From Prosapia bicincta (Eukaryota; Arthropoda; Insecta; Hemiptera; Cercopidae), in contig JBAIZL010000001.1 of the NCBI GenBank assembly GCA_036971475.1, positions 138,913,192-138,977,191 on the forward strand: 64,000 nucleotides of DNA. The letters are read 5' to 3'. The translations under genes were made by a program, and so were the position numbers. The notes below the pieces were generated by a model, which ran no database searches, had not been told where the DNA came from, and worked only from the letters and a program-made list of their open reading frames with translations. Position 1 is the first letter of the stretch. Each line of letters starts with the position of its first letter. Of this stretch, positions 5,557 through 64,000 are shown piece by piece.

Positions 5557-5760
5557 AACAATCACTATACATTTAAATTTTTAATAAAAGTGAAGCAAAT
5601 AAAGCTGTTTTTGTTAGAAAATGGCTTCCCAAATGAAATTCTAGTACTGTATTTCATATAATCATGTAGAAAACTTGATTGGATTAAATAAACATATTCA
5701 ATAATCCCTAAACGTGGATGCCAGACTATACTGTATTACTTGGATAAAGAGTAGGTGTAC
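5557..5760. other. Unique AT-rich stretch
   Basis: This separates the 38-bp array from the MITE that starts at 5761. Nothing is recognised. Confidence 0.5.
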
Positions 5761-6122
5761 TGTCACCGGCACACGACAAGAACACTGTCCCAACGCAGAG
5801 AAAAACTGTAAAGTCATTCCCAAAAACATTTCTAACACAAAATCTTAGATTTACAGAAAATTACAATGCAGTAACGGAATCGTATATAATTTATTTTGTA
5901 CACCCTCTCTTTTTTAAAATGAGTACTTTTATCTATCTCTAAATACTAGCTATCTCTAACTATCTATCTCGTACTTATTTTACTTACTAAAATATAGCTA
6001 CTGTACTAAAATACTACCGTACGGTTAGGTTATGTTTGTAAGTCAGAAATACGCAGCGCATGCGCAGAACTAAAAACCGAGCGTGTAGAAACACCAGGGC
6101 CTCTCTTCGTGCGCCGGTGACA
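5761..6122 (+). mobile_element. MITE-like element, TGTCACCGGC termini (copy 1)
   Basis: A 362-bp segment begins TGTCACCGGCACACGA and ends with the inverse of TGTCACCGGCGCACGA, an imperfect terminal inverted repeat of about 16-20 bp. A reverse-complement relative lies at 40164-40498. The two share internal blocks, including the ACCGTACGGTTAGGTTATG stretch and a GCGCATGC-containing core. No convincing target-site duplication is seen and there is no coding capacity. The superfamily is not assigned. Confidence 0.75.
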
Positions 6123-11399: not shown

Positions 11400-13825
11400 T
11401 GGTTCATTCAATTTAGATAGATTTTCGACAACAGTCCATCTAGAGGTGAAGAAGTGGTCGAAAATGTCATGAGACTGATAGGTAGGGTTTATTTACTCGA
11501 AAAACCACTCAAATCATAACTGTCAACGATTAAAGTTCTACTAACTCTGAATCATAAAATACAGAAATCTAGATCAAAGAATGAAAATATATTTTAGGCT
11601 ATGTTTACATTTTAATAAATTATCAATCTTAGCCTTGGTTCACAGTCTGTCTACATTAAATCACTTAGTCCTCTCACTGATCAGTTTATTAACAGGGTGG
11701 TATAAAAACACGAGGGTCTAAAGGGAAAGTAATTGTCCCAAGGACGTTTTCTAGGTCACATCAGACAAAAAATTGTATTACTAAGGGCTAGTAGGATGAA
11801 CATCTGAAAGAAAACCTTGATCTTTACATTCCATATTGAGGCTAAGACAATCGATATGTTAAAACCATTGAGCTTCAAACATCTGTATTTTCAGATGTAT
11901 TACAGAGGTTTTATTAGAAAAAATTCAGTTCTTTGATAAAACTAATAGCTTAGCAATTTACTTTAAATTTGCTACAGATTTTGTAAAACAGAGGTGTGAA
12001 TAACAGATTGAAATTTCCGACGTTTAAACTAAACGGAAATCAGTTAAATAAGGCGGTAGTGTGATTGTGACAACGAGCTCGAAACACTAATTAAAATTGA
12101 TAAAAAATAATATCTTAGTAAATATATTCAAAAGTTTTATCTACTGTATATGTAAATAGGCTGGGGTTATAAATAAATTCTAAATGAATTGGGTTGCCAA
12201 AAGCTTGTTAAGATACAAGAGGGACTATATACAATTAACCCTTTGAAGAGCACTCTGTTTTACCTTTGAAGAACAATGAGTTTTACCGGGAATAAAGAAG
12301 TGACGTACCGGTTCAAAGAACCGGTTCATTAGTTTAGCCCAAAGAAGGTAATGGATTAATTATTTTGTTACGTATTAGTACTCTTTTTAATGTATGGTAT
12401 AAATAACAGTAAATGTAATTAGGGCGTTAACGGAAGCGTGCTAATAGGATTGTCAAAGGCTTGGGACGGGTAGACCGCGATTTATGGCTCCGATGAGGGA
12501 TGACGACAGGGGGAACAACTGTAAACCAGCGGCTGCTTATGACCCCCTGTAAAGTAGCAGGGGCCGGGAACTTGTGGGGGTTGAAGTGGGGAAAGGGTTG
12601 CGAGTTAGGTTAGGCTAGGTTAAAAAAAATGGATTTGATTTTTTATCCTATCAGGATAATTGGTGAGTCTTTTAATCGACATGGATCGCGTTAAGATCAC
12701 TTTCTGGCATAGTTATACAAATAATAATTAAATTAGGCCTACACATATTCGACGTGAAATAAAAAAGTTTCACTACTGTTTAAGCCACTGTGAAATTTCG
12801 TAGTAGATGAGGTAAAGTAGTATCAATGGCCGGCCCGGCAAACGAGGTAGAAGGGTGAGTTATTTTTCCAAAAACCTCTAAACTCTTGGTCTAAGCGCTG
12901 GAATGGAAAGGCAGATCTGTCTCTTTATCTCACTCCCCTCTTTCTCAGAGAGTGAGGGAGAGAGATTGGACTGACTGGCGCTCTACTTCGGCAAACTACC
13001 TGGCTACCCTCGTCAAACCAAGGGGGTGACTGGCTCACAGTCCTTCACCCATGACGACAGTGTCTGATGTTTTATACACAACGAATACACAATTTCTACC
13101 AAAGAGCCAAGTGGCAGCTTATAAAATTTGACCAGTATCGGCGTACTCAATTGGTTTTGGTTATGAGTTATATTTGTTAGTCATCTTCTTCTTCAAACAC
13201 GTTTGGCGTGAAGTAGTGGTCGTTTATTGTTATCGTAATTTTCCGGAAATCTGTGAGCCTTTTAATCTTTGTTTTTATTATATTACTAACGTTTTGTTTT
13301 ATATCTATCGTGTTTTTATTTTATTTGTATGTTAACAATAAACAACAAAGCAACAATGTCTTGTTCCGATTGCTCATATAATAAGCTGACGAGATAATTG
13401 TTTTAGAGTTTATCACTAAGACATGTAAACGTGTCTCATGTGATTGATATGTGAGTTTATAAATATTTTGTATATAGAACAATAGTGTAAACAATTATTC
13501 TGATAAATAATGCTTCAGTTACGATAAATGTTATATGCAAAAGACTTTTTTCAAACAAAATTTGTAAAACGTAACATTTTTTTTACTTTTTGCAATTTTA
13601 AACCAAAAATAACTTACTTGGTACTAACATTTTAATTTTATTACTAAATACATATTTTTTTATTAGAATTTGACATTTTTTTTTACTCCTGAACGTGATT
13701 TTTGTACGTATTACCCTACTCGCATGAGCCCTGTCGCTGGTGACTTGTCTATTTACGTCACTATTCCTGAAAGGGTTTATATAAAAGAAACATCGATGTA
13801 CAAAATACAGGTAGGAGGAAGTTGC
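11400..13825. other. Unique AT-rich sequence with a small GC-rich patch
   Basis: No gene is recognised. At 12307-12327 the sequence has two ACCGGTT-type palindromic boxes, including AACCGGTT at 12319-12326. About 12420-12620 is GC-rich with G runs and ends in a TTAGGTTAGGCTAGGTTA run. The 30-bp stretch near 13108-13140 (CAAGTGGCAGCTTATAAAA) resembles 48633-48665. Confidence 0.35.
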
Positions 13826-15183: not shown

Positions 15184-15660
15184 GCAGTATGGACACCGAA
15201 AATAATTCATCGTAAATAAGAATAGAAAGTAACAGATGTTTCTGAATATTTAGTGCAAAATAAGTTTTAACAAAAGTCACAAAGCCTTATTTTGTGAATA
15301 TCTTTCACTTTCTATACAAACAGACCTAATTATTTGCAGTTTCCACATCGAAAATAATTAATCGTAAATAAGAATAGAAAGTAACAGATGTTTGTGAATA
15401 TTTAGCACAAACTGAGTTTTGACAAAAGTCACAAAGCCTTATTTTGTGAATATCTTTTACTTTCTATACAAACAGACCTAATTATTTGCAGTTTCCACAT
15501 CGAAAATAATTAATCGTAAATAAGAATAGAAAGTAACAGATGTTTGTGAATATTTAGCACAAACTGAGTTTTGACAAAAGTCACAAAGCCTTATTTTGTG
15601 AATATCTTTTACTTTCTATACAAACAGGCCTAAGTTTGTATTTGCAGTTTCCACATCAGA
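15184..15660 (-). repeat. 152-bp tandem array, left arm, 3 units
   Basis: GCAGTTTCCACATCGAAAAT recurs at 15336 and 15488, with further occurrences near 15184 and 15643 that are variant at the ends. Each unit contains GAATAGAAAGTAACAGATG and the mirrored ACTTTCTATACAAACAG, so units have internal dyad character (AGAAAGTAA against TTACTTTCT). Confidence 0.88.
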
Positions 15661-16517
15661 TTTGACGTTTTTACTTAAAAGTGACCAGATGTGGTCACCA
15701 CAGAATGCACTTACCAGTGCCGAAGTACTGTCGCATAACAACGTTTTGCATTGGTATACGTAACTAACTTGAAACATAGTAAACAATGTTACCTTAATGT
15801 TGATACCAAACTTGGAAATAAATTAATATCCGTGTGTTAAGCAGAATGAAAACCTTATGGGTCTTGTAATATTTTTAACATGTGTATATATCAAATACCA
15901 CGTGTAAAAAGTTATAACTAAAAAAACTATATTGAACAAATCATGTAGCTTACTAAAAAATATAAAAATGTACAACGTAAAAATATCTTAGACTGTCTGT
16001 ACGCAGTTATTACATTTCCATTTATAAAAAGTTTCCATTCCCCTACAATACAGAAAATATTACAATATACAGAATTGTTTATACTGTGTAGGCTAATGAC
16101 AGATAATAGACAATTTTGCTTTTTTAAACACTCAACGTTTCGAATTTCTTTCCAAAAAATTTTTTTTTCAAAAGCTCAGTTTTAATTAAACAATTAGGCC
16201 TATACAACATAAATTACGATTTACAAAATACATAACATTATAAAAAACATAGTAAAAATCAACAAAATTACAAAACTCTTAATAAATATCCATTTACAAG
16301 TCAAATTTTTCTATCACTATAAAACAGACAAATCACAGATACATAAACTAAAACATCTAATATTAATAACAGAATCAACATTTTAAATTTTTAAAACCAC
16401 ACAATCATTCTAATATATATATATACATTACCTCGAGTGACCAAAAAACCCACAAAAATGTTAAATTTCCCTTATAATTTCAGTACTAAAGATTTATATG
16501 CAGATGGAAAATCATTT

Positions 16518-16640
16518 TATGTTGTATAATTGTTTAATTAAATCTGAGCTCTTGAAAAGGAATTTCGGAAAGAAATTCGAAACGTTGAGTGTTTAAAAAT
16601 GCAAAATTGTCTATGATCTGTCATTAGCCTACACAGTATA
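16518..16640 (+). repeat. Inner-edge module shared with 59.03 kb
   Basis: The stretch from GTATAATTGTTTAATTAAA through GAATTTCGGAAAGAAA and ACGTTGAGTGTTTAAAAA to GTCTATGATCTGTCATT recurs in the same orientation at 59027-59135. Its inverse lies in the left arm at about 16085-16210. Confidence 0.75.
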
Positions 16641-17059
16641 AACAATTCTGTAAATTGTAATATTTTCTGTATTGTAGGAGAATGGAAACTTTTTATAAAT
16701 GGAAATGTAATAACTGCGTACTGACAGTCTAAGATATTTTTACGTTGTACATTTTTATATTTTCTAGTAGGCTACATGATTTGTTCAATATAATTTTTTT
16801 AGTTATAACTTTTTACACGTGGTATTTGATATAAAGCATGTTAAAAATATTACAAAACCCATAAGGTTTTCATTCTGCTTAACACACAGATATCAATTTA
16901 TTTCCAAGTTTGGTATCAACATTAAGGTAACATTGTTTACTATGTTTCAAGTTAGTTACGTATACCAATGCAAAACGTTGTTATGCGACAGTACTTCGGC
17001 ACTGGTAAGTGCATACTGTGGTGACCACATCTGGTCACTTTTAAGTAAAAACGTCAAAT

Positions 17060-17852
17060 CTGATGTTGAAACTGCAAATACAAACTTAGGCCTGTTTGTA
17101 TAGAAAGTAAAAGATATTCACAAAATAAGGCTTTGTGACTTTTGTCAAAACTTAGTTTGTACTAAATATGCACAAACATCTGTTACTTTCTATTCTTATT
17201 TACGATTAATTATTTTCGGTGTGGAAACTGCAAATAATTAGGTCTGTTTGTATAGAAAGTAAAAGATATTCACAAAATAAGGCTTTGTGACTTTTGTCAA
17301 AACTCAGTTTGTACTAAATATTCACAAACATCTGTTACTTTCTATTCTTATTTACGATTAATTATTTTCGGTGTGGAAACTGCAAATAATTAGGTCTGTT
17401 TGTATAGAAAGTAAAAGATATTCACAAAATAAGGCTTTGTGACTATTGTCAAAACTTAGTTTGTACTAAATATTCACAAACATCTGTTACTTTCTATTCT
17501 TATTTACGATTAATTATTTTCGGTGTGGAAACTGCAAATAATTAGGTCTGTTTGTATAGAAAGTAAAAGATATTCACAAAATAAGGCTTTGTGACTATTG
17601 TCAAAACTCAGTTTGTACTAAATATTCACAAACATCTGTTACTTTCTATTCTTATTTACGATTAATTATTTTCGGTGTGGAAACTGCAAATAATTAGGTC
17701 TGTTTGTATAGAAAGTAAAAGATATTCACAAAATAAGGCTTTGTGACTATTGTCAAAACTCAGTTTGTACTAAATATTCACAAACATCTGTTACTTTCTA
17801 TTCTTATTTACGATTAATTATTTTCGGTGTGGAAACTGCAAATAATTAGGTC
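17060..17852 (+). repeat. 152-bp tandem array, right arm, 5 units
   Basis: GTGTGGAAACTGCAAATAAT recurs at 17219, 17371, 17523, 17675 and 17827, exactly 152 bp apart, with an earlier variant at about 17067. This is the inverse of the left-arm array with two more units. Inner units share substitutions (for example GACTATTG for GACTTTTG), which indicates local amplification. Confidence 0.92.
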
Positions 17853-17916
17853 TTAACACACAGATATCAATTTATTTCCAAGTTTGGTATCAACATTAAG
17901 GTAACATTGTTTACTA
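17853..17916 (+). repeat. Transposed 64-bp copy of a piece of the palindrome
   Basis: The segment beginning TTAACACACAGATATCAATT and ending ACATTGTTTACTA is a direct copy of 16879-16942, attached immediately outside the right-arm array. This looks like template switching or unequal exchange at the element edge. Confidence 0.85.
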
Positions 17917-19300
17917 ACCTTGTCTGTCTTTAACCTCTATAAAAAACTATTAGTTATTAACAGAAATTTGATAAAAATATTATACAAAATGTTATTATAC
18001 GTACGAATACTTTAACTGAACAAATGAATTAAACGAAATCATTTTAATAATATGTCAATAATGGCCAAAAATTAAAAGCTACGTCTTTACTTTGTAGCCT
18101 TAAGTTTATTAAACAAATTTATTCTTGAAGCAATGTTTTAATATTCATCATACCATATAAAAATTAAATCTTTTACCTAAAATGTCTGAGAGTACATATA
18201 CAACCATAATCCACATAATTTATCCTCATAACAATCATCTCTCATTATAACTGGGGCAGCCACACCAAAATTTAGAAAGTAAGGATAAATGTAAACAGAT
18301 AGTTGAGTTTTGCATCTGTGTTGAAGAAAGGGTTAGTTACGTGACGAAAATAAAATATTTTTCCTAGCACTCAATAGTGGGAGCAAACATCTGTTGCTGG
18401 GGCTAACTAAAAATCTATTTATATTTTAGTTATTATTTAGTTAAAAAGTGCAAATTTAATGTGCCCGTGGCTAACCATCCCATTTATATATATGTCTAAA
18501 TGAAGTTATTTTTCAAGTGAAAAACTAGTGTATTTGATAATAGGAAATAACTAACCTAAGTCAAAAATAACTATATCAACTTACTATTCTTAACACACTA
18601 CCCACTACACTTCTTGCCTTGGGGATAAAGGTTAGCCACTCGAAATATAAGTGGAACATATTTAGCCCTTACTAGTCTCCAAATAAGTGTAAAAAAAAAA
18701 AAATTATAAGTAATCTTACTCCTGTCTGTTTACTTAAAGAAAAAAACTACCTTGTCTTCTAAAGACTATTATATTATTATGACCAGAAATTATTTTTTTC
18801 ACTTTTTTAAATTGTAACTGTTTGTACGCTGCAGTTTATATATAAACTATGTGTTTATATATAATATTTTAATACTAATTGATATATTAAGTACTTGAAA
18901 GTTTAAGTGAAATAAATTGAATCTGAATTTTAATATTCAATAAAACAAAATCTGTACTTTACTAAAGAAATGTTATGTAATTTACTACCCCGAAATTATG
19001 AATGTATATATTATATGTGTATGAAAAAGTTTCTAAAATTTTCAATTTGGATTTTCAAACTCATTGTCTTTGTCTTAATACATTTTATTTAAGGGTAAAA
19101 CCTGTATCTAGGACAGGCAGCTAAAACTAATGTTCTAAATAATATCTATATTGTAGAAAATACAGAAAACCTCAATGAAACTACCACAACATATAATGCT
19201 AAATAGAATCATAGTTGTGAATTTCTGTGCTAGCTACTTTCTTTAGATTTCAGTGGTCTTAATATTATGTAGAGTAATTGTAAAAATACATACATGCAGT
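17917..19300. other. AT-rich stretch, nothing recognised
   Basis: Long A/T runs and no protein-like frame or repeat. Confidence 0.5.
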
Positions 19301-31900: not shown

Positions 31901-32385
31901 AGTTCCTTGTCGAAGAAGATTGGTGTTGTTTTCTTCTAAAACGTATTTGTATTACTGTATATTTATATCTTGGATATGCCGATATATTTCGTATTTTATC
32001 TTCTGACAGGTTTTTTATTAATCACTTAAACAATAGTTTATGACTATCCGAACTTTATTAGAATGTTTATTATATTACATACATTTAAGTAGCAGCACGT
32101 ACAGTCTCGAATGATTCAACTGCTTGGCCTATTGCTTAACATTAGCTAATTTGTCTGAATTTGAATATTATCGAACGGAACAAAAGAGGTTTAAAATCTG
32201 ATTATTTTATGTCAGTAATATGTTATCCAAACTGTGAAACACTACATGAAGCAGAAAAACTGCAGTAATGGCGTTTTCAAATATATTTCCCTATTTTTGA
32301 TATTTAAAAAATTAAATTATAAAATTACCAAAGATAAATACTAAGTTATTGTACTCAAAGTCTCACTAAATACTGATTAGTTTCA
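28986..32385. other. Gene-free stretch with minor repeats
   Basis: No gene is recognised. GAGTCGGCCTC occurs at about 29200 and 29516. A tight dyad GCTGCAG-CCACGT-GCTGCAGC lies near 30241-30262, and a TTATCTCAAGATATAA dyad follows it. A loose repeat of TTAGGTATAACNGTCA appears near 30425, 30531, 30588 and 30657. A C run followed by CA repeats lies at 31795-31820. Confidence 0.35.
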
Positions 32386-50005: not shown

Positions 50006-50011
<6 letters not shown>

Positions 50012-50222
50012 AATAAAACAATTTATAAATACAAGAATAATTCATTGAATCTACAATTCAAAGCTTTTCGTTGGCAAACAGTACCAACATCCTCAGGAAT
50101 ACTAGAGACTTCTAGTGTCGTCTCTAGTATTCCTAAGGATGTTGGTACTGTTTACCAACGAAAAGCTTTGAATTGTAGATTCAATGAATTATTCTTGTAT
50201 TTATAAATTGTTTTATTTTTTT
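50006..50222. repeat. 217-bp near-perfect hairpin, possible snapback MITE
   Basis: The left arm 50006-50109 and right arm 50120-50222 are reverse complements around a 10-base loop (TTCTAGTGTC), with about two mismatches by eye in ~103 bp. On the minus strand of the left arm, 50066-50096 reads CTGAGGA, a stem-loop (GTTGG/CCAAC), then GAAA, the hammerhead core layout. The right arm has CTAAGGA there, so only one arm keeps the core. A transcript would form a long double-stranded hairpin. Confidence 0.9.
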
Positions 50223-50654
50223 ATTAATACACAAGAATACATATTATAGTATACATATATTGGTTCAGTAATTTCAGGACTGGCCAGCCTTACTTCACTT
50301 CATTACTCAGTTTGTGATTATTATTACAACTTGATTATAGCTGAATTAAACTTCTATTACGTTCAATCAAATCTATATTTTTATATCCGTTTTAGCAGGA
50401 ACTCACCCAGTATATAAAAGCAACAGGTCTGTTTTAATATTGCAATATACTTTTTTTCACTGAGTGTCAAAAATGTGAATGTATAAAAAACATGAATTAA
50501 AAATATGTATTAGTAGTTTTTAATTGATTGACCTTCTTGGAATACTATTTTTCATTATCCCTTTTCTCTCTCTTATTACAACACCTTAGGTCCTAACCGA
50601 TAGTTTCCTTTTTTTATACTGTATTATCAGTGAATGTTATTCTACAATCACTCT
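50223..50654. other. Unique AT-rich stretch
   Basis: Nothing recognised. Confidence 0.5.
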
Positions 50655-52100
50655 TTCTTTACAAACTCCTTCCTTCTTCTAACCTTCTTCACTTAACTGT
50701 TACATTAAGATTGCAGCATCATACAAACTCCTTCTTTCTGTTAATTCCGTTCACTTTGCTCTTACAGCATCACACCTTGCATCACACAGAATCGCACTCA
50801 TTGCGATTTGCAGCATCGGAAAAATTGGTTTCTTTTCCTAATTCTCTTTACTTCGCTCTTACGTCCAAGTTGTAGCATCCCACAAACTCCTTCCTTCTTC
50901 TAACCTTCTTCACTTCGCTCTTACGTCCAAGTTGTAGCATCCCACAAACTCCTTCCTTCTTCTAACCTTCTTCACTTCGCTCTTACGTCCAAGTTGTAGC
51001 ATCCCACAAACTCCTTCCTTCTTCTAACCTTCTTCACTTCGTTCTTACGTCCAAGTTGTAGCATCCCACAAACATCTTCCTTCTTCTAACCTTCTTCACT
51101 TCATTCTTACGTCCAAGTTGTAGCATCCCACAAACTCCTTCCTTCTCCTAACCTTCTTCACTTAACTGTTACATTAAGATTACAGCAACACACAAACCAC
51201 TTTCTTCACAAAATCCTCTTTACGTTTGATTTGCTTCATCACACACACTCCTTTCTTTAGCTAATGTTCTTTTCACTGTTAAGTCCCATTGTCAGCATCA
51301 CACAAACACCTTTCTTTACCTAATGTTCTTCTTTTCGCTGTTACGTCCCATTTTCAGCATCACACAAACACCTTTCTTTACCTAATGTTCTTCTTTTCGC
51401 TGTTACGTCCCATTTTCAGCATCACACAAACACCTTTCTTTACCTAATGTTCTTATTTTCGCTGTTAAGTCCCATTGTCAGCATCACACAAACTCCTTTC
51501 TTTACCTAATGTTCTTTTCGCTGTTAAGTCCCATTTTCAGCATCACACAAACACCTTTCTTTACTTAATGTTCTTATTTTCGCTGTTAAGTCCCATTGTC
51601 AGCATCACACAAACTCCTTTCTTTACCTAATGTTCTTTTCGCTGTTAAGTCCCATTGTCAGCATCACACAAACACCATTCTTTACCTAATGTTCTTCTTT
51701 TCGCTGTTAAGTCTCATTGTCAGCATCACACAAACTCCTCTCTTCACCTAATGTTCTTCTTTTCGCTGTTAAGTCCCATTGACAGCATCACACAAACTCC
51801 TCTCTTCACCTAATGTTCTTCTTTTCGCTGTTAAGTTCCATTGTCAGCATCACACAAACTCCTCTCTTCACCTAATGTTCTTCTTTTCGTTGTTAAGTCC
51901 CATTGTTAGCATCACACAAACTCCTTTCAATTTTTTTTCCTTCCTGTGTCAAGCTTAGGTCCCATCACACAAACTCCATTCCTCCCTTAACCTTCTTCAC
52001 TTAGCTGTGACGTACAAGCTGCAGCGCCCCACAACCTCCTTTCTTATGCTAAACCTTTTCACTCCTCTGTTAAGTCCAGGTTGCCGCACCATAACTCCTT
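50655..52100 (+). repeat. Pyrimidine-rich ~61-bp minisatellite, two subfamilies
   Basis: Subfamily 1 (about 50872-51185) repeats every 62 bp with TTGTAGCATCCCACAAACTC and TTCTAACCTTCTTCACTTCG. Subfamily 2 (about 51235-51930) repeats every 60-62 bp with CAGCATCACACAAACACC and TTACCTAATGTTCTTC. Both follow the same plan (GCATC, CACAAACTCC, TTCTTCACTT-type, TTACGTCC), so they share an ancestor. Edges at 50655-50870 and 51930-52100 are diverged. The plus strand is strongly C/T-rich. Confidence 0.92.
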
Positions 52101-53394
52101 CCTCTTCCTTCTAATCTTCGATATGACTTTCTTGTTCCCGTACTTCATCAGTCCTTTGCCTAGTTCATACTCTAAAGATTCATACTGAATATCACTCTAT
52201 TTCCGGAAATCGTTCTCTGCCAGTTGTATCATTGTATCACAGTTTTAATTTCTCTCAATTTTTCCAAACACAAAATTATTTTTAAAATAACGTATACGTT
52301 TGTGAAATAGTTATTCTAAACACCCAAGCATGAAAATGAACGGGCACAAAGTTTGTCCTTTCAACAGGATTTACTTGTTTTTATTTGTTATTTAACCTTT
52401 AAAACACGTACGGTATCACCGTAGGGAACGGACGTGATATCTCCCTCGGTACTAAAGTGGCCAATACCGTCATGTATGGATGTCTACCTGCATCGGGTAA
52501 AGGCGAGGAAGGCCATTAATGTTATAGACAGGATTTATGTACGCACGCAAAGCTCTTCTCGATAACTAATAGTGTGCAAAGGTTTGATTCCACATAGGCT
52601 ATTACTCTTCTACTATAATTTTATTCCACTTTCAAACTAAACCTGTTTGGCATATTTTTATTGCTCTTAAATTTTAGAGAAATTTTTTATATCGTGTAAC
52701 ATAATTTAATTTATTTTCTATACAAACAAGATATTTAAATTTGTAAAGCTACTTATTTTAAAACGCTTTGCATTATTAAAAATGGTTCAAAATTAAGTTC
52801 GCCCCTGAAAAAAGTGTTACGTTCGACTAACGAAAAAGTTAGTCAGTTCGAACAGACTACATTCTAGCTGCTTGTCGTTATTCTTCTATAATTATCTCGC
52901 AAAAATAGTGAAAGTAAATTCTAATATAGAAGCTGAAAACCGAAATAGCAACATGAAGAGCGTCATGGCAGATTTCAAACAGGTGACGGTGTCAAAGTGT
53001 GGCCCAGGCAATCTATTCAACCCTTTTACCTGTGCAACAGCTGCTGCAGATGGTTCGGCAAATCTTCCCACGATCACCGAATTTCTCCCCAATTTAACTC
53101 AAAAGATCGAAAAATAACTCGCAGCACTAGCGACGAAGCGGCCAGTTAACTTTGGCCAAGAAGCGAAGCATTGCAGTTGCCAACTCGTCGTGATATTGGC
53201 CGTGAATTTGACGAGCTTTTCTCGAAACTAGCCTTGACTTTAACCGCTTTGTTTTGCATTTTACCCTCACAGCGCTGAAGTCAAGTTTTAACAACTCTTG
53301 AAATTTTAATCGCAAAATGAAAATTTTAATTTGATTTCCAGAAAAGAGATTTTGAAAAAACAATTTCTGCAATCAGTGGTTTTTACATTGATAG
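52101..53394. other. Unique sequence left of the large palindrome
   Basis: An 81-codon frame at 52872-53117 is the only open stretch of note; its product has no recognised domain. No repeat is seen. Confidence 0.4.
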
Positions 53395-53540
53395 AGGGAG
53401 AAGCCCAAACCATGTTAATTCACGTGCAAGGTTCGTAATGCCGCTACATAGGCTTCACTACAACGCCGGTCTGTTATAAGAGTCTAAGCTGTCTAAATCT
53501 AAAACTTCACACTGCAGACCATTACACCAGTTTACTCTTG

Positions 53541-53937
53541 CGTACATCTAAGAACCTCCATTAGAATAACTAACAAGATTTCTATAACGTTTATCCATCA
53601 CTTACCCTAAGCCATTTCACAGTTTCACGTCTTTCAAGCTAAGCTTGTAACGTGACTCCTTGAATATTTCCCGGGCAAGAGTCGTCATCCTACCATTCAG
53701 TTGTGTACATAAAACCCCTTCCATCGGTTGATTAAAGCAGTTCCTATAACGTTTATCCATCACTTACCCTAAGCCATTTCACAGATTCACCTCTTTCAAG
53801 CTAAGCTTGGAACGTGACTCCTTGAATCCTTCCCGGACAAAGAGTCGTCATCCTACCATTCAGTTGTGTACATAAAACCCCTTCCATCGGTTGATTAAAG
53901 CAGTTCCTATAACGTTTATCCATCACTTACCCTAAGC
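53541..53937 (-). repeat. 162-bp satellite, left arm, outer block (~2.5-3 units)
   Basis: TATAACGTTTATCCATCACT recurs with repeat marks at 53591, 53753 and 53916 (intervals 162 and 163 bp). The third unit is interrupted by the hAT insertion at 53938. Confidence 0.9.
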
Positions 53938-55538
53938 CAGTGGTTCCCAAACTGGGGGGCGCGCCCCCTGGGGGTTCTTGGAGAAAGTCCAGGGGGGCAT
54001 GACACCCAAATGAAATAAATAAAAAATTACAAAAATAATTTCCTACAAAAAAAATAAAACTTATTGGTGTATGCACAGATGGTGCTCCTTCAATACTGGG
54101 TTCTCATTCAGGCTTTGAGCAGTTGGTCAAAGAGAAGAATGCTGATGTGGTTGGGATTCATTGTTTTATTCACCGCCAAGCCTTGGCACCAAAAACGCTT
54201 CCAAACGAACTCAATGCTGTTTTAAAGCTATGTATTAAAGTAGTCAACTACGTTAAGAACAGTGCCTTAAATACTCGACTGCTTAAAGTTCTTTGTGAAG
54301 ATTTAGGAAGTGACCACAAAACGCTGCTATTTCATACAGAAGTACGATGGCTACCAAAAGGCAATATGTTGGGAAGACTACTTGGGCTCCGTGATGAAGT
54401 GATTACGTTTTTGGCACAGCAGAAACAAAACGAGCTTAGTGCAGAGTTCAAAAAACCCAGTAACCAAGTGATTCTTGCCTATTTATCAGATTTTTTTGAC
54501 ACGTTAAACAACCTAAACTTGAGACTGCAAGGTGCAGACTCAAATATAGTAACACATCAGGATGCCATCAAGATGTACGTTGAGAAACTACAACTTTGGA
54601 TACGTAAAGTGTCAATGAACCCCAGCAACTATTCAAGTTTCAGCAAAGTAGTATCAGTCTCAGAAGAAGCATGTTTTGAGGACGTTTTTGAAGGACCGCT
54701 TTTGAAAAACTTGATAATTGACCATTTGAAGAACCTCAAGGAATAGCTCAGCAGGTACTTTCCTAACTTCAGAGGAGTTTTACAAACTATCAACAGACCC
54801 GTTGCAGATGGACATACAGTTGCTGCCAGAAGAGTTGCAAGAGGAGGGAATAGAAATAATAAATGACTCTGCTGCAAGATACGATTTTGAACAAATGGAC
54901 AAGCCCTCATTTTAGTTAAAGTACTTAAAAGTTTACCCCAGTGTTTCAGAGAAAGCTGTTCGGATGTACTTGCCTTTTTCAACAACATACATGTGCGAAA
55001 AAGCGTTTTCAACTCTTGTGGCGATCAAAACAAAGTACCGCAACAAACTTAATGTCGAAAGTGACCTACGCTGTGCTTTGTCTGAAACTCAATCCAGGAT
55101 CTGTCAACTTATTCAGAACATGCAAGCGCACCCATCTCACTAAATTACATTTTATGTTTTGTTTTTGTAAGTAGGTAGGCCTATTGTTTCACCTTCCTTA
55201 AATTGAAATTTGTATCTGTGTTACAATGTTAAATTTTGTATCAGTAATTATATTCGTTTTTCATGTAATACTTGTTTTAATTTTCATCATACGTACAATT
55301 ATCGAATCTTCCATTCTGCGATACCGCATTCAACAGTGAACAAAAAATCTACCTACTCACGGTATCAAGTAGGCACATACTTGTACGACTTCATGTACTT
55401 ATACAAGTAGGAGTTGCTATGTACGGCACCGTGGAAATAGGGTATTGTAAAATTGAAAGCTGATATGTGTAGGGGGGGGCGTGGAGGTCTCCAAATAACC
55501 AGAGGGGGGCGTGGTACACAAAAGTTTGGGAACCCCTG
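53938..55538 (+). mobile_element. hAT element, Buster/ZBED5 type, copy 1
   Basis: A 1601-bp element starts CAGTGGTTCCCAAACTGG and ends with the inverse of CAGGGGTTCCCAAACTTTTG. It is flanked by perfect 8-bp duplications CCCTAAGC (53930-53937 and 55539-55546), the hAT hallmark. The target lies inside a 162-bp satellite unit. The subterminal regions carry GGGGGGC runs. The coding part lacks the 5' end of the transposase gene, so the element is non-autonomous. Confidence 0.95.
54039..55143 (+). pseudogene. Truncated hAT transposase (ZBED5/Buster-like), copy 1
   Basis: This is the remnant of a DDE transposase that cut and pasted the element. The readable frame opens at 54039, near the second catalytic aspartate in CTDGAPSILGSHSGF (Asp codon 54078-54080). 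The hAT Cys-x2-His motif (HCFIHRQAL) follows, then the VRWLPKG motif and a helical insertion region. The C-terminal dimerisation region (LPFSTTYMCEKAFSTL) carries the catalytic glutamate codon at 54997-54999, and the frame ends HPSH at a TAA (55141-55143). The N-terminal BED finger and first catalytic aspartate are deleted. Reading is broken by a TAG at 54744-54746, a frameshift shortly after (around 54763-54772) and a TAG at 54913-54915. It resembles the ZBED5 / SCAN-domain-3 group of hAT-derived proteins. The same lesions occur in copy 2. Confidence 0.93.
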
Positions 55539-56560
55539 CCCTAAGCCATTTCATAGGTACACGTCTTTCAAGCTAAGCTTAAAACGTTCCTCCTTGAATC
55601 CTTCCCGGACAAGAGTCGTCATTCTACCATTCAGTTGTGTACATATGAACACCTTCAATCGGTTGATTAAAGCAGTTCCTATAACGTTTATCCATCACTT
55701 ACCCTAAGCCAATTCACAGGTTCACCTCTTTCAAGCTAAGCTTGGAACGTGACTCCTTGAATCCTTCCCGGACAAGAGTCGTCATTCTACCATTCAGTTG
55801 TGTACATATGAACACCTTCAATCGGTTGATTAAAGCAGTTCCTATAACGTTTATCCATCACTTACCCTAAGCCATTTCACAGGTTCACCTCTTTCAAGCT
55901 AAACTTGGAACGTGACTCCTTGAATCCTTCCCGGACAAGAGTCGTCATTCTACCATTCAGTTGTGTACATAAAACCCCTTCAATCGGTTGATTAAAGCAG
56001 TTCCTATAACGTTTAGCTATCACTTACCCTAAGCCATTTCATAGGTTCACCTCTTTCAAGCTAAGCTTGGATCGTGACTCCTTGAATCCTTCCCGGACAA
56101 GAGTCGTCATCCTACCATTCAGTTGTGTACATAAAACCCCTTCCATCGGTTGATTAAAGCAGTTCCTATAACGTTTAGCTATCACTTACCCTAAGCCATT
56201 TCATAGGTTCACCTCTTTCGAGCTAAGCTTGGATCGTGACTCCTTGAATCCTTCCCGGACAAGAGTCGTCATCCTACCATTCAGTTGTGTACATAAAACC
56301 CCTTCCATCGGTTGATTAAAGCAGTTCCTATAACGTTTAGCTATCACTTACCCTAAGCCATTTCAATGGTTCACCTCTTTCAAGCTAAGCTTGGATCGTG
56401 ACTCCTTGAATCCTTCCCGGACAAGAGTCGTCATTCTACCATTCAGTTGTGTACATAAAACCCCTTCCATCGGTTGATTAAAGCAGCCCCTATAACGTTT
56501 ATCCATCATTTACCCATAGCATCTTAATAGGTTTCTAACTAGTCACCGACAAAGGCAGTG
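55539..56560 (-). repeat. 162-bp satellite, left arm, inner block (~6 units)
   Basis: Units mark near 55688, 55851, 56012, 56175, 56337 and 56498. Variants include TTAGCTATCAC in place of TTATCCATCAC and CATATGAACACC in place of CATAAAACCCC. Beyond 56500 two strongly diverged units grade into unique sequence, to about 56790. Confidence 0.93.
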
Positions 56561-56822
56561 AAAGAAGGTAATTCTTTCAAGCCTTCCCTGGCGAGAGTTG
56601 TTACCCTGACTAGGCTGGGTTCGCCCAAACACTTCCAATAAACTGATTAAAGAGGGTTCTATAACGTTAATCCATAATGTTTACCCTTAGGCTCTGTATG
56701 GGTTTCTTCTTGTTCGGCGACAAAACTAAATACGGAATATGATTCCTTGATGCTTCCCTGACGAGAGTTGTCATCCTACCATTCAGCCATGTACCTACGT
56801 AAACACACATTTCTTTTGTAAA

Positions 56823-56905
56823 TTTTACCTCTTTATTAGCTATCTATAGCAATAGCAAAGTACGAATGCCCCTGGACGCTAAGGTCAGTTTTTCTCGCAC
56901 GCATG
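56823..56905. repeat. Minor inverted repeat nested in the left arm (first half)
   Basis: ACCTCTTTATTAGC...CAATAGCAAAGTACG...GCCCCTGGACGC is an inverse of 57275-57345 (GGCGTTCAGGGGCACTCGG, TTTTGCTATTACTATA) with clear divergence. It points to an older, smaller foldback at the inner edge of the large palindrome. Confidence 0.6.
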
Positions 56906-57255
56906 CACACTCACCCTTACGAGTGCAGAGTATTTCCACTTCATTGGTCATTTAGTGGTATCTTCTAACCAAACGCTATTTTTTTAAGTGTTAATTTTAA
57001 CTAGAAATAGTTAATAAATATTGGTTCTACTTAAAATTACAAGAAAAATGATACCAAACAACCCATGTTTTACTTTAGCATTTATTAGTCACTTTAACGT
57101 ATTAAGTACAGTGTTTTCCTTTAGCGTTTTTACAGTGTTTTTATTTCACGTTATCCTCTCATGAACAGCGACAATAAATTGTACATTGTTTGGTATCGAT
57201 TTTCTCGTATGATGTGCAGAATCAATTTATGTTAAACTATCTAAGGAGGAGATTA

Positions 57256-59265
57256 GGCCCGTACTAATCTTCTGCTTTTGTGTGAGTGAGACTACCTGGC
57301 GTTCAGGGGCACTCGGATTTTGCTATTACTATAAATATAGGTTGCTATTTTAATGTTGTATTTTAACATGTTACTTCACTTTTATTTTGCTTTTGCTCTT
57401 TATGTATTAGGATGATTTTGCTCTATTTCTGGCGATTATAACCAAATAACATTTTTTACTTATAACACAAAAAACTAAAAAGCCGAGACTGTGTCGTTCT
57501 TGAAAGTTTGTAGTTAGTATTATAAAAACGTCAAAATAACTTTAAAAAGGCCTATTTAATATCAAAAAATAATATATAACGAAATTATCGAACATTTTAC
57601 TTAGTGTCAAGGGCATATACCACGAGGATCTGGCAACACTGAAGTGCTTTCACCTTAGATATCCCTTCCTACCTACCCCCTGTTTCACTCCAATAAATCA
57701 TCCCATTGTGTTTTTTCTGGGAAAGGTACACTTCCTACCATATTTCCATGGACAAGGTAAACGGCTCAGACATTGAACATTTCAAGGACACCTGTACGGT
57801 TCCAACCTACACTGAAACAGAATTTAACGCTTTTCAAGGACTTTCTCTTCCCCGTGGTTTCCCTAATTAGGAACAGAATAAAACCGACAGCGAGAGCCAA
57901 GTAGCTAGCATTCCCATCATAGTTTAGTTTGGGGAAATTAAATGGGATGAATAGTGTTGGAGAGAAGCAAAGAAACATCCTGGAAACGCTTATAAGTGTT
58001 TCCTTCATTTTATTTGTGTTAAATAAGATGCATCGTAGGATTAAAATTAAGCATAACAATTGTTCTAATATTTTTTTAAAAATATCTTCTTAAAGTATTA
58101 CAACAGAAGGAATTCTCTTACCAATGATTAACGTGAGTTTTTGGGGTCAACGCCCTTCATGAGGATTATAAAATTCGTTTATAATATTTTATAAACTAAA
58201 ATTTTTATTTTATGATTTGTAACGATTTTCATATTAATTTCAAATTCTATTTAAGGAAATGAAACATAATTTCATATTAGTTTTCTTTTAAAACGAGTTA
58301 ACAGTAAACTGAGAATTATCAATAAATATTGGCTACATATACAATAGCCGTAAAGCATTCAATGTGCACAGCCTGGTTTAGCAATTGTTGCGTATTTAGA
58401 AAATATGACTCCCGACCTCCGAAGAATGGGTAAATACCCTAACTGTGGTTTGAATCCATGAAACAATCGCTGTAGCATTGTCCTTAACCTATCACAAAAG
58501 TCTTGTAGACTGGGTATTTTGTAGGATTGTAGTTTGTGAAAGTGAACATTTAAACTTTGACATTTCTTGCATGCCTTTAACCTGATCTACTCTCTACACG
58601 TACTAATACTTATATTGACTTTGCACTCTTTATATTCGTAATGTATTTAAAAATCCATTTAAATTAAAAACAGTTTTATTTTATTTATTTTTGTTAACTT
58701 CTGCCTGACCTTAAGCATTAGATTTATGTAATTTTCAAAATATTGCTTTGGGGATACCAATTTGCTCCTAGTCCCCAGAGAATATTAATACACCCTCTCC
58801 ACAAAGGATATCTGATGCACTCCTGATGTAATGCTCTTGAAGTTATTTCTTCCATGGGCTAAACCTTAATTCCTAAATAAATACCACCCAAGTCATGTTT
58901 GGTGATGGATATTTGTACATTTGTACTTGTAAATGTATTAATGTAAATTTATTAAGAGTTTTATAATTTGTTGATTTGTATTAGGTTTTATATAATGTTA
59001 TAATTGTTATAAATGTTATAATGGTGTATAACTGTTTAATTAAAATTCAGCTCATTAAAAAGAATTTCGGAAAGAAACGTTGAGTGTTCAAAAAAGCAAA
59101 ATTGTCTGTGGTCTGTCATTTGCCTATATAAATATATATGCCCGAAGATAATAGCAAGGCCAGTCATTGAAAGTTAACTCGCATAAATACCAAGTAAGAT
59201 TCTTGTTTAAGTACATAAGTTAAAGTGATAAGTGTATACAAGAAAACAGTGTTGCATAACTACAA

Positions 59266-59334
<69 letters not shown>
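57256..59334. other. Spacer between the arms of the large palindrome
   Basis: About 2 kb of mostly unique AT-rich DNA. It contains the second half of the nested inverted repeat (57275-57345), the module shared with the 16.5-kb palindrome (59027-59135) and a TA run (about 59270-59335) that abuts the right arm. A 97-codon minus-strand frame at 57766-58059 has no recognised domain. Confidence 0.6.
59027..59135 (+). repeat. Module shared with the 15-18 kb palindrome
   Basis: GTATAACTGTTTAATTAAAA, then AAGAATTTCGGAAAGAAACG, then TTGAGTGTTCAAAAAAGCAA, then TCTGTGGTCTGTCATTTGCC matches 16518-16640 in the same order, with one ~6-base gap and several substitutions. Confidence 0.75.

Positions 59335-59337
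<3 letters not shown>
59270..59337. repeat. (TA)n microsatellite at the arm junction
   Basis: An AAATATAAATATA lead gives way to about 55 bp of TA dinucleotides, ending exactly where the right arm begins. Confidence 0.95.
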
Positions 59338-59338
<1 letters not shown>

Positions 59339-59999
59339 CTCCTCCTTAGATAGTTTAACATAAATTGATTCTGCACATCATACGAGGAAATCGATACCAA
59401 ACAATGTACAATTTATTGTCGCTGTTCATGAGAGGATAACGTGAAATAAAAACAGTAAAAACGCTAAAGGAAAACACTGTACTTAATACATTAAAGTAAC
59501 TAATAACTACCAAAGTGAAACATGGGTTGTTTGGTATCATTTTTCTTGTAATTTTAAGTAGAACCAATATTTATTAACTATTTCTAGTTAAAATTAACAC
59601 TTAAAAAAATAGCGTTTGGTTAGAAGATACCACTAAATGACCAATGAAGTGGAAATACTCTGCACTCGTAAGGGTGAGTGTGCATACGTGCGAGAAAAAC
59701 TGACCTTAGCGTCCAGGGGCATTCGTACTTTGCTATTGCTATAGATAGCTAATAAAGAGGTAAAATTTACAAAAGAAATGTGTGTTTACGTAGGTACATG
59801 GCTGAATGGTAGGATGACAACTCTCGTCAGGGAAGCATCAAGGAATCATATTCCGTATTTAGTTTTGTCGCCGAACAAGAAGAAACCCATACAGAGCCTA
59901 AGGCTAAACATTATGGATTAACGTTATAGAACCCTCTTTAATCAGTTTATTGGAAGTGTTTGGGCGCCCCCAGCTTAGTCAGGGTAACAACTCTAGCCA

Positions 60000-61861
60000 G
60001 GGAAGGCTTGAAAGAAATACCTTCTTTCACTGCCTTTGTCGGTGACTAGTTAGAAACCTATTAAGATGCTATGGGTAAATGATGGATAAACGTTATAGGG
60101 GCTGCTTTAGTCAACCGATGGAAAGGGTTTTATGTACACAACTGAATGGTAGAATGACGACTCTTGTCCGGGAAGGATTCAAGGAGTCACGATCCAAGCT
60201 TAGCTTGAAAGAGGTGAACCTATGAAATGGCTTAGGGTAAGTGATAGCTAAACGTTATAGGAACTGCTTTAATCAACCGATGGAAGGGGTTTTATGTACA
60301 CAACTGAATGGTAGGATGACGACTCTTGTCCGGGAAGGATTCAAGGAGTCACGATCCAAGCTTAGCTTGAAAGAGGTGAACCTATGAAATGGCTTAGGGC
60401 AAGTGATAGCTAAACGTTATAGGAACTGCTTTAATCAACCGATGGAAGGGGTTTTATGTACACAACTGAATGGTAGGATGACGACTCTTGTCCGGGAAGG
60501 ATTCAAGGAGTCACGATCCAAGCTTAGCTTGAAAGAGGTGAACCTGTGAAATGGCTTAGGGTAAGTGATAGCTAAACGCTATAGGAACTGCTTTAATCAA
60601 CCGATGGAAGGGGTTTTATGTACACAACTGAATGGTAGGATGACGACTCTTGTCCGGGAAGGATTCAAGGAGTCACGATCCAAGCTTAGCTTGAAAGAGG
60701 TGAACCTATGAAATGGCTTAGGGTAAGTGATGGATAAACGTTATAGGAACTACTTTAATCAACCGATTGAAGGTGTTCATATGTACACAACTGAATGGTA
60801 GGATAACGACTCTTGTCCGGAAAGGATTCAAGGAGTCACGATCCAAGCTTAGCTTGAAAGAGGTGAACCTATGAAATGGCTTAGGGTAAGTGATGGATAA
60901 ACGTTATAGGAACTACTTTAATCAACCGATTGAAGGTGTTCATATGTACACAACTGAATGGTAGAATGACGACTCTTGTCCGGAAAGGATTCAAGGAGTC
61001 ACGATCCAAGCTTAGCTTGAAAGAGGTGAACCTATGAAATGGCTTAGGGTAAGTGATGGATAAACGTTATAGAAACTGCTTTAATCAACCGATTGAAGGT
61101 GTTCATATGTACACAACTGAATTGTAGAATGACGACTCTTGTCCGGGAAGGATTCAAGGAGTCACGTTCCAAGCTTAGCTTGAAAGAGGTGAACCTGTGA
61201 AATGGCTTAGGGTAAGTGATAGCTAAACGCTATAGGAACTGCTTTAATCAACCGATGGAAGGGGTTTTATGTACACAACTGAATGGTAGGATGACGACTC
61301 TTGTCCGGGAAGGATTCAAGGAGTCACGATCCAAGCTTAGCTTGAAAGAGGTGAACCTATGAAATGGCTTAGGGTAAGTGATAGCTAAACGTTATAGGAA
61401 CTGCTTTAATCAACCGATGGAAGGGGTTTTATGTACACAACTGAATGGTAGGATGACGACTCTTGTCCGGGAAGGATTCAAGGAGTCACGATCCAAGCTT
61501 AGCTTGAAAGAGGTGAACCTATGAAATGGCTTAGGGTAAGTGATAGCTAAACGTTATAGGAACTGCTTTAATCAACCGATGGAAGGGGTTTTATGTACAC
61601 AACTGAATGGTAGAATGACGACTCTTGTCCGGGAAGGATTCAAGGAGTCACGTTCCAAGCTTAGCTTGAAAGAGGTGAACCTGTGAAATGGCTTAGGGTA
61701 AGTGATGGATAAACGTTATAGGAACTGCTTTAATCAACCGATTGAAGGTGTTCATATGTACACAACTGAATGGTAGAATGACGACTCTTGTCCGGGAAGG
61801 ATTCAAGGAGGAACGTTTTAAGCTTAGCTTGAAAGACGTGTACCTATGAAATGGCTTAGGG
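60000..61861 (+). repeat. 162-bp satellite, right arm, inner block (~11 units)
   Basis: AAACGTTATAGGAACTGCTT, or the CGCTATAG variant, recurs near 60092, 60253, 60415, 60577, 60739, 60901, 61064, 61227, 61391, 61553 and 61715. The left arm has about six units in the same interval. Two variant blocks (the GTTTTATGTACACAAC type and the GTTCATATGTACACAAC type) alternate in groups, so the extra units may be a block duplication. Confidence 0.94.
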
Positions 61862-63453
61862 CAGGGGTTCCCAAACTTTTGTGTACCACGCCCCCCTCTG
61901 GTTATTTGGAGACCTCCACGCCCCCCCTACACATATCAGCTTTCAATTTTACAATACCCTATTTCCACGGTGCCGTACATAGCAACTCCTACTTGTATAA
62001 GTACATGAAGTCGTACAAGTATGTGCCTACTTGATACCGTGAGTAGGTAGATTTTTTGTTCACTGTTGAATGCGGTATCGCAGAATGGAAGATTCGATAA
62101 TTGTACGTATGATGAAAATTAAAACAAGTATTACATGATAAACGAATATAATTACTGATACAAAATTTAACATTGTAACACAGATACATTTTCAATTTAA
62201 GGAAGGTGAAACAATAGGCCTACCTACTTACAAAAAAAAAACATAAAATGTAATTTAGTGAGATGGGTGCGCTTGCATGTTCTGAATAAGTTGACAGATC
62301 CTGGATTGAGTTTCAGACAAAGCACAGCGTTGGTCACTTTCGACATCAAGTTTGTTGCGGTACTTTGTTTTGATCGCCACAAGAGTTGAAAACGCTTTTT
62401 CGCACATGTATGTTGTTGAAAAAGGCAAGTACATCCGAACAGCTTTCTCTGAAACACTGGGGTAAACTTTTAAGTACTTTAACTAAAATGAGGGCTTGTC
62501 CATTTGTTCAAAATCGTATCTTGCAGCAGAGTCATTTATTATTTCTATTCCCTCCTCTTGCAACTCTTCTGGCAGCAACTGCATGTCCATCTGCAACGGG
62601 TCGGTTGATAGTTTGTAAAACTCCTCTGAAGTTAGGAAAGTACCTGCTGAGCTATTCCTTGAGGTTCTTCAAATGGTCAATTATCAAGTTTTTCAAAAGC
62701 GGTCCTTCAAAAACGTCCTCAAAACATGCTTCTTCTGAGACTGATACTACTTTGCTGAAACTTGAATAGTTTCTGTTCTGTACTTTACGTATCCAAAGTT
62801 GTAGTTTCTCAACGTACATCTTGATGGCATCCTGATGTGTTACTATATTTGAGTCTGCACCTTGCAGTCTCAAGTTTAGGTTGTTTAACGTGTCAAAAAA
62901 ATCTGATAAATAGGCAAAAATCACTTGGTTACTGGGTTTTTTGAACTCTGCACTAAGCTCGTTTTGTTTCTGCTGTGCCAAAAACGTAATCACTTCATCA
63001 CGGAGCCCAAGTAGTCTTCCCAACATATTGCCTTTTGGTAGCCATCGTACTTCTGTATGAAATAGCAGCGTTTTGTGGTCACTTCCTAAATCTTCACAAA
63101 GAACTTTAAGCAGTCGAGTATTTAAGGCACTGTTCTTAACGTAGTTGACTACTTTAATACATAGCTTTAAAACAGCATTGAGTTCGTTTGGAAGCGTTTT
63201 TAGTGCCAAGGCTTGGCGGTGAATAAAACAATGAATCCCAACCACATCAGCATTCTTCTCTTTGACCAACTGCTTAAAGCCTGAATGAGAACCCAGTATT
63301 GAAGGAGCACCATCTGTGCATACACCGATAAGTTTTATTTTTTTTGTAGGAAATTATTTTTGTAATTTTTTATTTATTTCATTTGGGTGTCATGCCCCCC
63401 TGGACTTTCTCCACGCCCCCCAGGGGGCGCGCCCCCCAGTTTGGGAACCACTG
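61862..63453 (-). mobile_element. hAT element, Buster/ZBED5 type, copy 2
   Basis: A 1592-bp inverse copy of 53938-55538. It is flanked by 8-bp duplications GCTTAGGG (61854-61861 and 63454-63461), the exact complement of the duplication at copy 1, at the equivalent satellite position. The two are therefore one insertion that was later duplicated in inverse orientation, not two independent insertions. Confidence 0.95.
62255..63353 (-). pseudogene. Truncated hAT transposase (ZBED5/Buster-like), copy 2
   Basis: Same remnant as in copy 1, read on the minus strand. It has the second catalytic aspartate region, the Cys-x2-His motif, VRWLPKG and the C-terminal glutamate region. The 5' deletion, internal TAG (at 62652), frameshift and second TAG are identical to copy 1, so they predate the duplication. 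Differences from copy 1 are few: a Pro-to-Leu change in RQALAPKTL, a Leu-to-Phe change in VILAYL, a 6-base loss near KVSMNPSN (here KVQNRN), and scattered C-terminal substitutions. No function is expected. Confidence 0.93.
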
Positions 63454-63800
63454 GCTTAGGGTAAGTGATGGATAAACGTTATAGGAACTGCTTTAATCAA
63501 CCGATGGAAGGGGTTTTATGTCCACAACTGAATGGTAGGATGACGACTCTTGTCCGGGAAGGATTCAAGGAGTCACGTTCCAAGCTTAGCTTGAAAAAGG
63601 TGAATCTGTGAAATGGCTTAGGGTAAGTGATGGATAAACGTTATAGGAACTGCTTTAATCAACCGATGGAAGGGGTTTTATGTACACAACTGAATGGTAG
63701 GATGACGACTCTTGCCCGGGAAATATTCAAGGTGTCACGTTCCAAGCTTAGCTTGAAAGACGTGAAACTGTGAAATGGCTTAGGGTAAGTGATGGATAAA
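63454..63800 (+). repeat. 162-bp satellite, right arm, outer block (~2-3 units)
   Basis: Unit marks are near 63477 and 63641, with a final disrupted unit near 63797. This mirrors the outer block of the left arm (53541-53937). Confidence 0.9.
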
Positions 63801-64000
63801 AATCCATGGATAGAAATCTTGTTAGTTATTCTAATGGAGGTTCTTAGATGTACGCAAGAGTAAACTGGTGTAATGGTCTGCAGTGTGAAGTTTTAGATTT
63901 AGACAGCTTAGACTCTTATAACAGACCGGCGTTGTAGTGAAGCATATGTAGCGGCATTACGAACCTTGCACGTGAATTAACATGGTTTGGGCTTCTCCCT

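Follow-up and report, generated by a model that had tools for sequence, protein, structure and literature searches.

The question raised by the last part of a 64,000-nucleotide stretch of the Prosapia bicincta genome (contig JBAIZL010000001.1, positions 138,913,192 to 138,977,191 of the forward strand; hereafter the window) is how two long and nearly identical arms came to face each other in inverse orientation. A sequence-only reading of the window had described such arms across a spacer of ~2 kb, had noted that the outer edge was not visible, and had offered three origins, namely breakage-fusion, foldback transposition and template switching. It had also proposed a self-comparison of the window together with DNA downstream and a search of the assembly for arm copies without an inverse partner. 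Here, the window was joined to the contiguous 29 kb downstream (loci L009-L011), giving 92.8 kb that were examined in all and that contain no Ns; coordinates above 64000 continue the window numbering, and a position in L009 equals the coordinate minus 62808. The search space for copies elsewhere was the window's own assembly (2,207,215,594 bases, 361 contigs). Self-BLAST of the window paired 53395-56533 with 64000-60866 (97.5%) and 55539-57255 with 61049-59335 (97.4%), so the two facing arms are indeed present. The window ends inside the right arm, and the homology resumes in the downstream 29 kb. In the 92.8 kb, BLAST and edge alignment extended it outward on both sides and past the window end, through a further satellite of 62 bp, until it ended at the shared sequence AAGAATACATATTATAGTATA. 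Both outer edges are thus resolved. The inverted duplication is genuine and exceeds the size first described, and it is not a product of chance because the arms are kilobases long and about 98.7% identical. The whole structure, both arms and spacer, measures 17,982 bp and is made up as follows.

50233-57255, + strand: left arm, 7,023 bp, in the simplest reading the parental copy (BLAST and edge alignment)
57256-59334, no strand assigned: spacer, single-copy between the arms, 2,079 bp
59335-68214 (59335-64000 in the window; the end is L009:5406), - strand: right arm, inverted derived copy, 8,880 bp, its outermost 4.2 kb beyond the window end

The satellite and the hAT transposon that had been seen nested in the arms were both recovered, the former by Tandem Repeats Finder (TRF) and the latter by its terminal motifs and sequence. 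From the outside inward, the arms hold a non-tandem segment, the 62-bp satellite, a 164-bp unit, more non-tandem DNA, two units of a 162-bp satellite, the hAT, the rest of the 162-bp array, two much diverged units and part of a miniature inverted-repeat transposable element (MITE). The whole is a structural mutation for which we propose no function. It is most likely an interstitial inverted duplication of otherwise single-copy chromosomal DNA, a kind of rearrangement that is already known and is well resolved here.

At the inner edges of the arms and in the spacer lie the following features.

56841-57337, no strand assigned: MITE across the left inner edge, with terminal inverted repeats of 39 nt, 85% complementary, or longer
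58940-59132, + strand: one half of a palindromic element of high copy number, located in the spacer close to the right-arm junction (assembly search)
59266-59336, no strand assigned: (TA)n tract at the right-arm inner junction, 71 bp, 35.5 copies (TRF)

The claim that a (TA)n tract stands exactly at the right-arm inner junction was borne out by TRF and by the junction alignment, in which the left arm reads GGAGGAGATTA followed by GGCCCG and the right arm, joining (TA)n, reads GGAGGAGATTA followed by TATATA. In the left arm the MITE continues to about 57337, whereas in the right arm it breaks off at 57255. Among the best 40 of 861 candidates scored in the assembly, 32 of the 39 other copies listed extend to the right of 57245. 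Six other copies have about 75-80 bp, near 57247-57252, that the left-arm MITE lacks; the break in the right arm falls within about ten bases of this deletion scar. Since the MITE continues past 57255 on the left and is cut there in the right arm, the left arm would most simply be the parent and the right arm its inverted copy; a larger ancestral palindrome followed by loss on one side is a possible alternative polarity that needs more steps. Part of the spacer, 57609-58290, is matched at 80% by a single relative (L021), which lies about 115 kb downstream, among the matches listed for the best 40 of 1921 candidates, and this relative shows no further likeness to the duplication locus within the 3.7 kb compared. 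For the spacer segment beside the (TA)n tract, 59141-59250, no match was listed among the best 40 of 1921 candidates.

The left outer edge adjoins a second kind of element.

50007-50222, no strand assigned: near-perfect hairpin MITE, 216 bp, ending 10 bp outside the outer edge of the left arm

This hairpin is 94.9% self-complementary, with a predicted DNA fold of -107 kcal/mol (z -33), and it is high-copy in the assembly, where the other copies listed among the best 40 of 1299 candidates match at 85-93%. Two such hairpins occur in the 92.8 kb, and the share of positions no more than 12 bp away from a hairpin end is 0.11%, compared with 0.4%, 0 and 1.0% in three other stretches of the assembly, all these shares having been computed only after the match of edge and hairpin had been noticed. 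On the other side, the right tip at 68214 is followed by two or three bases and then by a ~38-bp end piece of a dispersed element (68217-68254, corresponding to L009:5409-5446). The outer junction lies 17 bp beyond the outer (TA)n run of the right arm, and (TA)n is found at or near both right-arm ends. No target-site duplication (TSD) was found at the arm tips, the + strand flanks being different (TTAATACAC outside on the left, ACATAGTCAT outside on the right).

The surroundings of the right tip also contain, about 620 bp beyond the arm, a high-copy reverse transcriptase remnant on the - strand (L009:6030-8082; 3662 candidates, best 40 scored), which we take to be Penelope-like from its reverse transcriptase motifs. 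Pfam scans of 8 and 6 open reading frames gave nothing useful and no support for a Penelope assignment. The end piece of the dispersed element recurs at 70811-70874, on the far side of the Penelope-like copy, and at 32011-32058 in the window in the other orientation.

With the edges in hand, foldback transposition can be weighed. A foldback transposon of the Tetris/FB type, with long terminal inverted repeats holding tandem repeats, would resemble this locus in architecture, namely in its long inverted arms with flanking domain, tandem repeats and inner domain around a middle; in the Tetris element of Drosophila virilis (PMC4079207), arms with internal tandem repeats likewise enclose a non-coding middle. 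Tetris has several copies and 8-10-bp target duplications, whereas here there is one locus and no such duplication at the tips. Three arm segments were searched for in the assembly; the search skips very common words, and only 3-4 candidates were obtained for each segment, all of which were scored. Segment 52900-53581 (682 bp) gave three matches, which were the left arm, the right arm and one 77% fragment (matching 53202-53520). All eight matches of 55868-56840 (973 bp, including the 162-bp satellite) and all 12 matches of 51985-52900 (916 bp) lay at the duplication locus. For these three segments, arm loci without an inverse partner were therefore not found, a single 77% fragment apart. The right inner edge moreover cuts through a high-copy MITE. 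Because the three segments gave no second arm locus and the tips have no TSD, a foldback transposon is contradicted and we consider it highly improbable. Such arms are easily taken for foldback transposons unless the remaining genome is searched.

The resolved edges also bear on a breakage-fusion-bridge cycle or a fold-back at the end of a broken chromosome, such as is described for large inverted duplications in humans. A spacer of normal copy number between the inverted copies is found in those cases as well (PMC3907307). However, the human fold-back duplications of that account come with terminal deletions, translocations or rings, whereas the present one lies inside a contig of 403.6 Mb with sequence continuing on both sides, and its right arm ends after 8.9 kb and gives way to different sequence. 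Being interstitial, the duplication fits breakage-fusion poorly, and there is very little chance that such a process produced this structure.

The arms had been described as ~99% alike in most parts, in agreement with the 98.1-99.5% identity that we find across four modules. Outside the arrays, 62 of 4,798 aligned bases differ (1.29%), a count from which three tracts were omitted because their units cannot be paired one to one, namely the 62-bp array, the 164-bp unit and the greater part of the inner 162-bp array. Divergence in seven modules ranges from 0.35 to 2.37% without significant heterogeneity (chi-square p 0.10), which would be compatible with a single event; a gradient of divergence along the arms was rejected by the same test. 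Mismatches are mildly clustered, with 18 neighbours within 30 bp compared with 12.4 expected (p 0.019; 53395-57255 without 55703-56377). Private mutations occur in both arms. The origin can thus be called recent, as the sequence-only reading had it, in a relative sense only. When changes in the hAT and the MITE were polarised, 14 fell on the right and 6-7 on the left (p 0.12-0.19, not significant), with 54611-54626 in the hAT counted as one event and indel columns and two ambiguous MITE sites left out. An early, protein-based impression of excess mutation in the right copy was not upheld by this count.

The level of divergence requires that an assembly artefact be considered, in which the two arms would be two haplotypes of one locus, the right one having been joined in inverse orientation. 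The 1.29% between the arms is about equal to the heterozygosity published for Homalodisca vitripennis (1.16-1.68%; PMC8496328), and the presence of (TA)n at or near both right-arm ends would also fit a misjoin. Yet the 92.8 kb contain no gap, and the outer junction lies past the outer (TA)n run and not within it. Two alleles would have common flanks, whereas the sequence beyond the homology differs at both right-arm ends. An artefact from palindromic reads would be expected to be near identical and not 1.3% diverged with arrays of unequal length. A haplotype misjoin is hence less likely than a real duplication, and we hold it to be decidedly unlikely.

The best explanation, and one that we regard as reasonably probable, is a replication accident with two template switches, of the type of microhomology-mediated break-induced replication (MMBIR) or fork stalling and template switching (FoSTeS), followed by divergence of the tandem arrays. 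A replication fork would have stalled or broken at the (TA)n tract, and the free 3' end would have found a new priming site on the opposite strand, 2 kb back at 57255 in the MITE, through a TA homology of about 2 bp. Some 7 kb would then have been copied backwards until copying stopped beside the 216-bp hairpin at 50222, where the strand would have returned to the chromosome from which it had started. Independent mutation of the two copies and changes in the length of several tandem arrays would have followed. A stall at TA, backward copying and exit at the hairpin would together explain the orientation, the spacer and both end positions. The locus shows what template switching is expected to leave, that is, a nearby inverted copy, a spacer of normal copy number and non-homologous edges. 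According to PMC2621351, the MMBIR model covers inverted duplications with 2-5 bp of microhomology at the junction; the likeness to such duplications lies in the inverted copy near its parent and the non-homologous junctions, while the differences are that we are dealing with an insect reference assembly, that the pre-event allele is not seen, and that microhomology can be measured weakly and at one junction. Hairpin-forming inverted repeats are reported to cause breaks and rearrangements (PMC3855049, PMC10164571).

The same edges could have arisen if a fragment of the left arm, replicated or excised, had been captured in inverse orientation at a double-strand break in (TA)n by end joining, without continuous template switching. 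Tracts of TA are prone to breakage. The non-homologous sequence beyond both tips, the scarcity of microhomology and the few unexplained bases that separate the right tip from the next element end would all be in keeping with end joining. However, end joining needs a free linear copy that happens to end 10 bp from a strong hairpin on one side and inside a MITE on the other, and template switching accounts for both ends more directly. We therefore regard capture by end joining as rather unlikely.

Several observations weigh against template switching. The microhomology at the inner junction is weak, amounting to a shared TA that itself lies within a TA tract. The hairpin MITE, being high-copy, could have inserted after the duplication. 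At eight loci that were read, the ~38-bp element end found at the right tip is preceded by other sequence, and for the 609 bp that follow the right tip no other full-length copy was listed among the best 40 of 127 candidates (48 matches, the others being about 110 bp or shorter except for a self-match of 122 bp). With no second copy of this segment listed and an element end at the tip, there is no empty site for comparison and microhomology at the outer junction is not measurable. Lastly, very error-prone copying would load the right copy with most of the mutations, and the split of 14 versus 6-7 is not significant.

We turn to the elements that the event would have carried along. The hAT is present in both arms.

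53938-55538, + strand: non-autonomous hAT, left copy, with a ZBED/FAM200-like transposase remnant; TSD CCCTAAGC
61862-63453, - strand: the same hAT, right copy, with the same TSD, which is GCTTAGGG on this strand

The element is 1.6 kb long and is flanked by an identical 8-bp TSD in both arms (terminal motifs and sequence). Its transposase fragment is 93-94% identical to annotated proteins of H. vitripennis (P0001, P0002), a likeness that taken by itself would point to this leafhopper or a near relative as the probable host. The family is large in the assembly, with 1042 candidates, the other copies listed among the best 40 being 92-97% identical. Relative to five other copies, the two arm hATs share 15 private changes. 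Because the TSD is the same in both arms and these changes are held in common, the hAT appears to have inserted well before the duplication. The arms are told apart by a small complex replacement (54611-54626 versus 62772-62781), which arose in the right arm since the five other hAT copies match the left arm.

The tandem arrays of the two arms are as follows.

50852-51928, + strand: 62-bp satellite, left arm, 17.7 copies
L009:2987-4768, no strand assigned: 62-bp satellite, right arm, 29.1 copies
52364-52537, + strand: 164-bp unit, left arm, single, with the 10-bp direct repeat ACAGGATTTA at 52364 and 52528
L009:2038-2539, no strand assigned: 164-bp unit, right arm, three tandem units
53582-53939, + strand: 162-bp satellite, outer, left arm, 2.2 copies (TRF)
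63452-63800, - strand: 162-bp satellite, outer, right arm, 2.2 copies (TRF)
55539-56515, + strand: 162-bp satellite, inner array, left arm, 6.0 copies (TRF)
60073-61861, - strand: 162-bp satellite, inner array, right arm, 11.0 copies (TRF; unit matching)

A profile search showed that two much diverged 162-bp units continue the left inner array to about 56804. Units at the edges of the 162-bp arrays pair one to one (L0-R0, L1-R1, L2-R2 and L7-R12), and the difference in mid-array could reflect either a gain of five units on the right or their loss on the left. The 10-bp repeats in the left arm are exactly 164 bp apart, and the assembly search found the 164-bp unit at no other locus. On this sequence evidence, the 164-bp array may possibly be a newborn satellite that arose by slippage between short direct repeats; alternatively, the left arm shrank from three units to one. 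When the 62-bp, 164-bp, inner 162-bp and outer 162-bp tracts and the outer TA run are compared, four of the five are longer on the right and the outer 162-bp tract is equal; four of four unequal tracts longer on one side corresponds to p 0.125 at best. In the window, no Rfam family reached the gathering threshold. Two weaker matches below that threshold in 53300-64000, each to a bacterial small RNA, were taken as chance, and a structured RNA in the satellite was rejected as a candidate. Patterns taken from the satellite and from the spacer element had 0 exact matches in viral contigs, and the satellite pattern likewise had 0 in genome contigs. The window as a whole (1-64000) is rich in short tandem arrays with periods of 38, 62, 96, 100, 147, 148, 152, 156, 162 and 166 bp, among others; other stretches of the assembly, of 25, 10 and 10 kb, hold 5, 2 and 0 comparable arrays.

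The window contains a second inverted duplication.

15184-17535, no strand assigned: second inverted duplication, arms of about 1 kb (15184-16072 and 16648-17535), 97% identity

Both of its outer ends carry a 152-bp satellite (3.0 and 5.2 copies); at 17852-17916 a 65-bp piece of the arm recurs. Its centre is the palindromic element, at 16089-16631, half of which is also the element in the spacer of the first duplication. Outside this central element, no second full-length locus of the arm was listed among the best 40 of 78 candidates, in which most other matches were short or partial (67-91%). Ten other loci of the palindromic element showed no similarity to the arms (15184-16072 or 16648-17535); the element therefore stops at or within about 16 bp of the arm ends. 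In three of these ten loci the similarity also includes 54-61 bp at 17923-17983, immediately beyond the second duplication. The occurrence of two inverted duplications in 64 kb, both touching one element family, is suggestive. A non-random sample of about 70 kb of other sequence contained no inverted pair of kilobase size; it did contain one 451-bp inverted pair with 91% identity (L015) and several short palindromes. Dispersed repeats also lie in inverse orientation in the window, at 5758-6122 and 40501-40164 (74%) and at 12359-12509 and 48520-48373 (79%).

Given that the 7-kb copy begins in a MITE, close to the deletion scar of that MITE, and ends at a distance of 10 bp from a hairpin MITE, and given that the second duplication is centred on a palindromic element of which half stands in the first spacer, we tentatively propose that hairpin-forming MITEs set the start and the end of replicative inverted duplications, and that such copying seeds and lengthens private tandem arrays. 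The part on arrays draws on the four of five tracts that are longer in the copy and on the 164-bp unit that is single in the parent and threefold in the copy. We consider this proposal doubtful as it stands. Irrespective of it, the locus provides a clean example of a natural interstitial inverted duplication that lets one name the parent and the copy, both edges and the probable places of stalling. Should MITEs and duplication ends prove to be linked across the whole genome, three features of this assembly would be connected, namely its high-copy MITEs, its inverted duplications and its short private satellite arrays.

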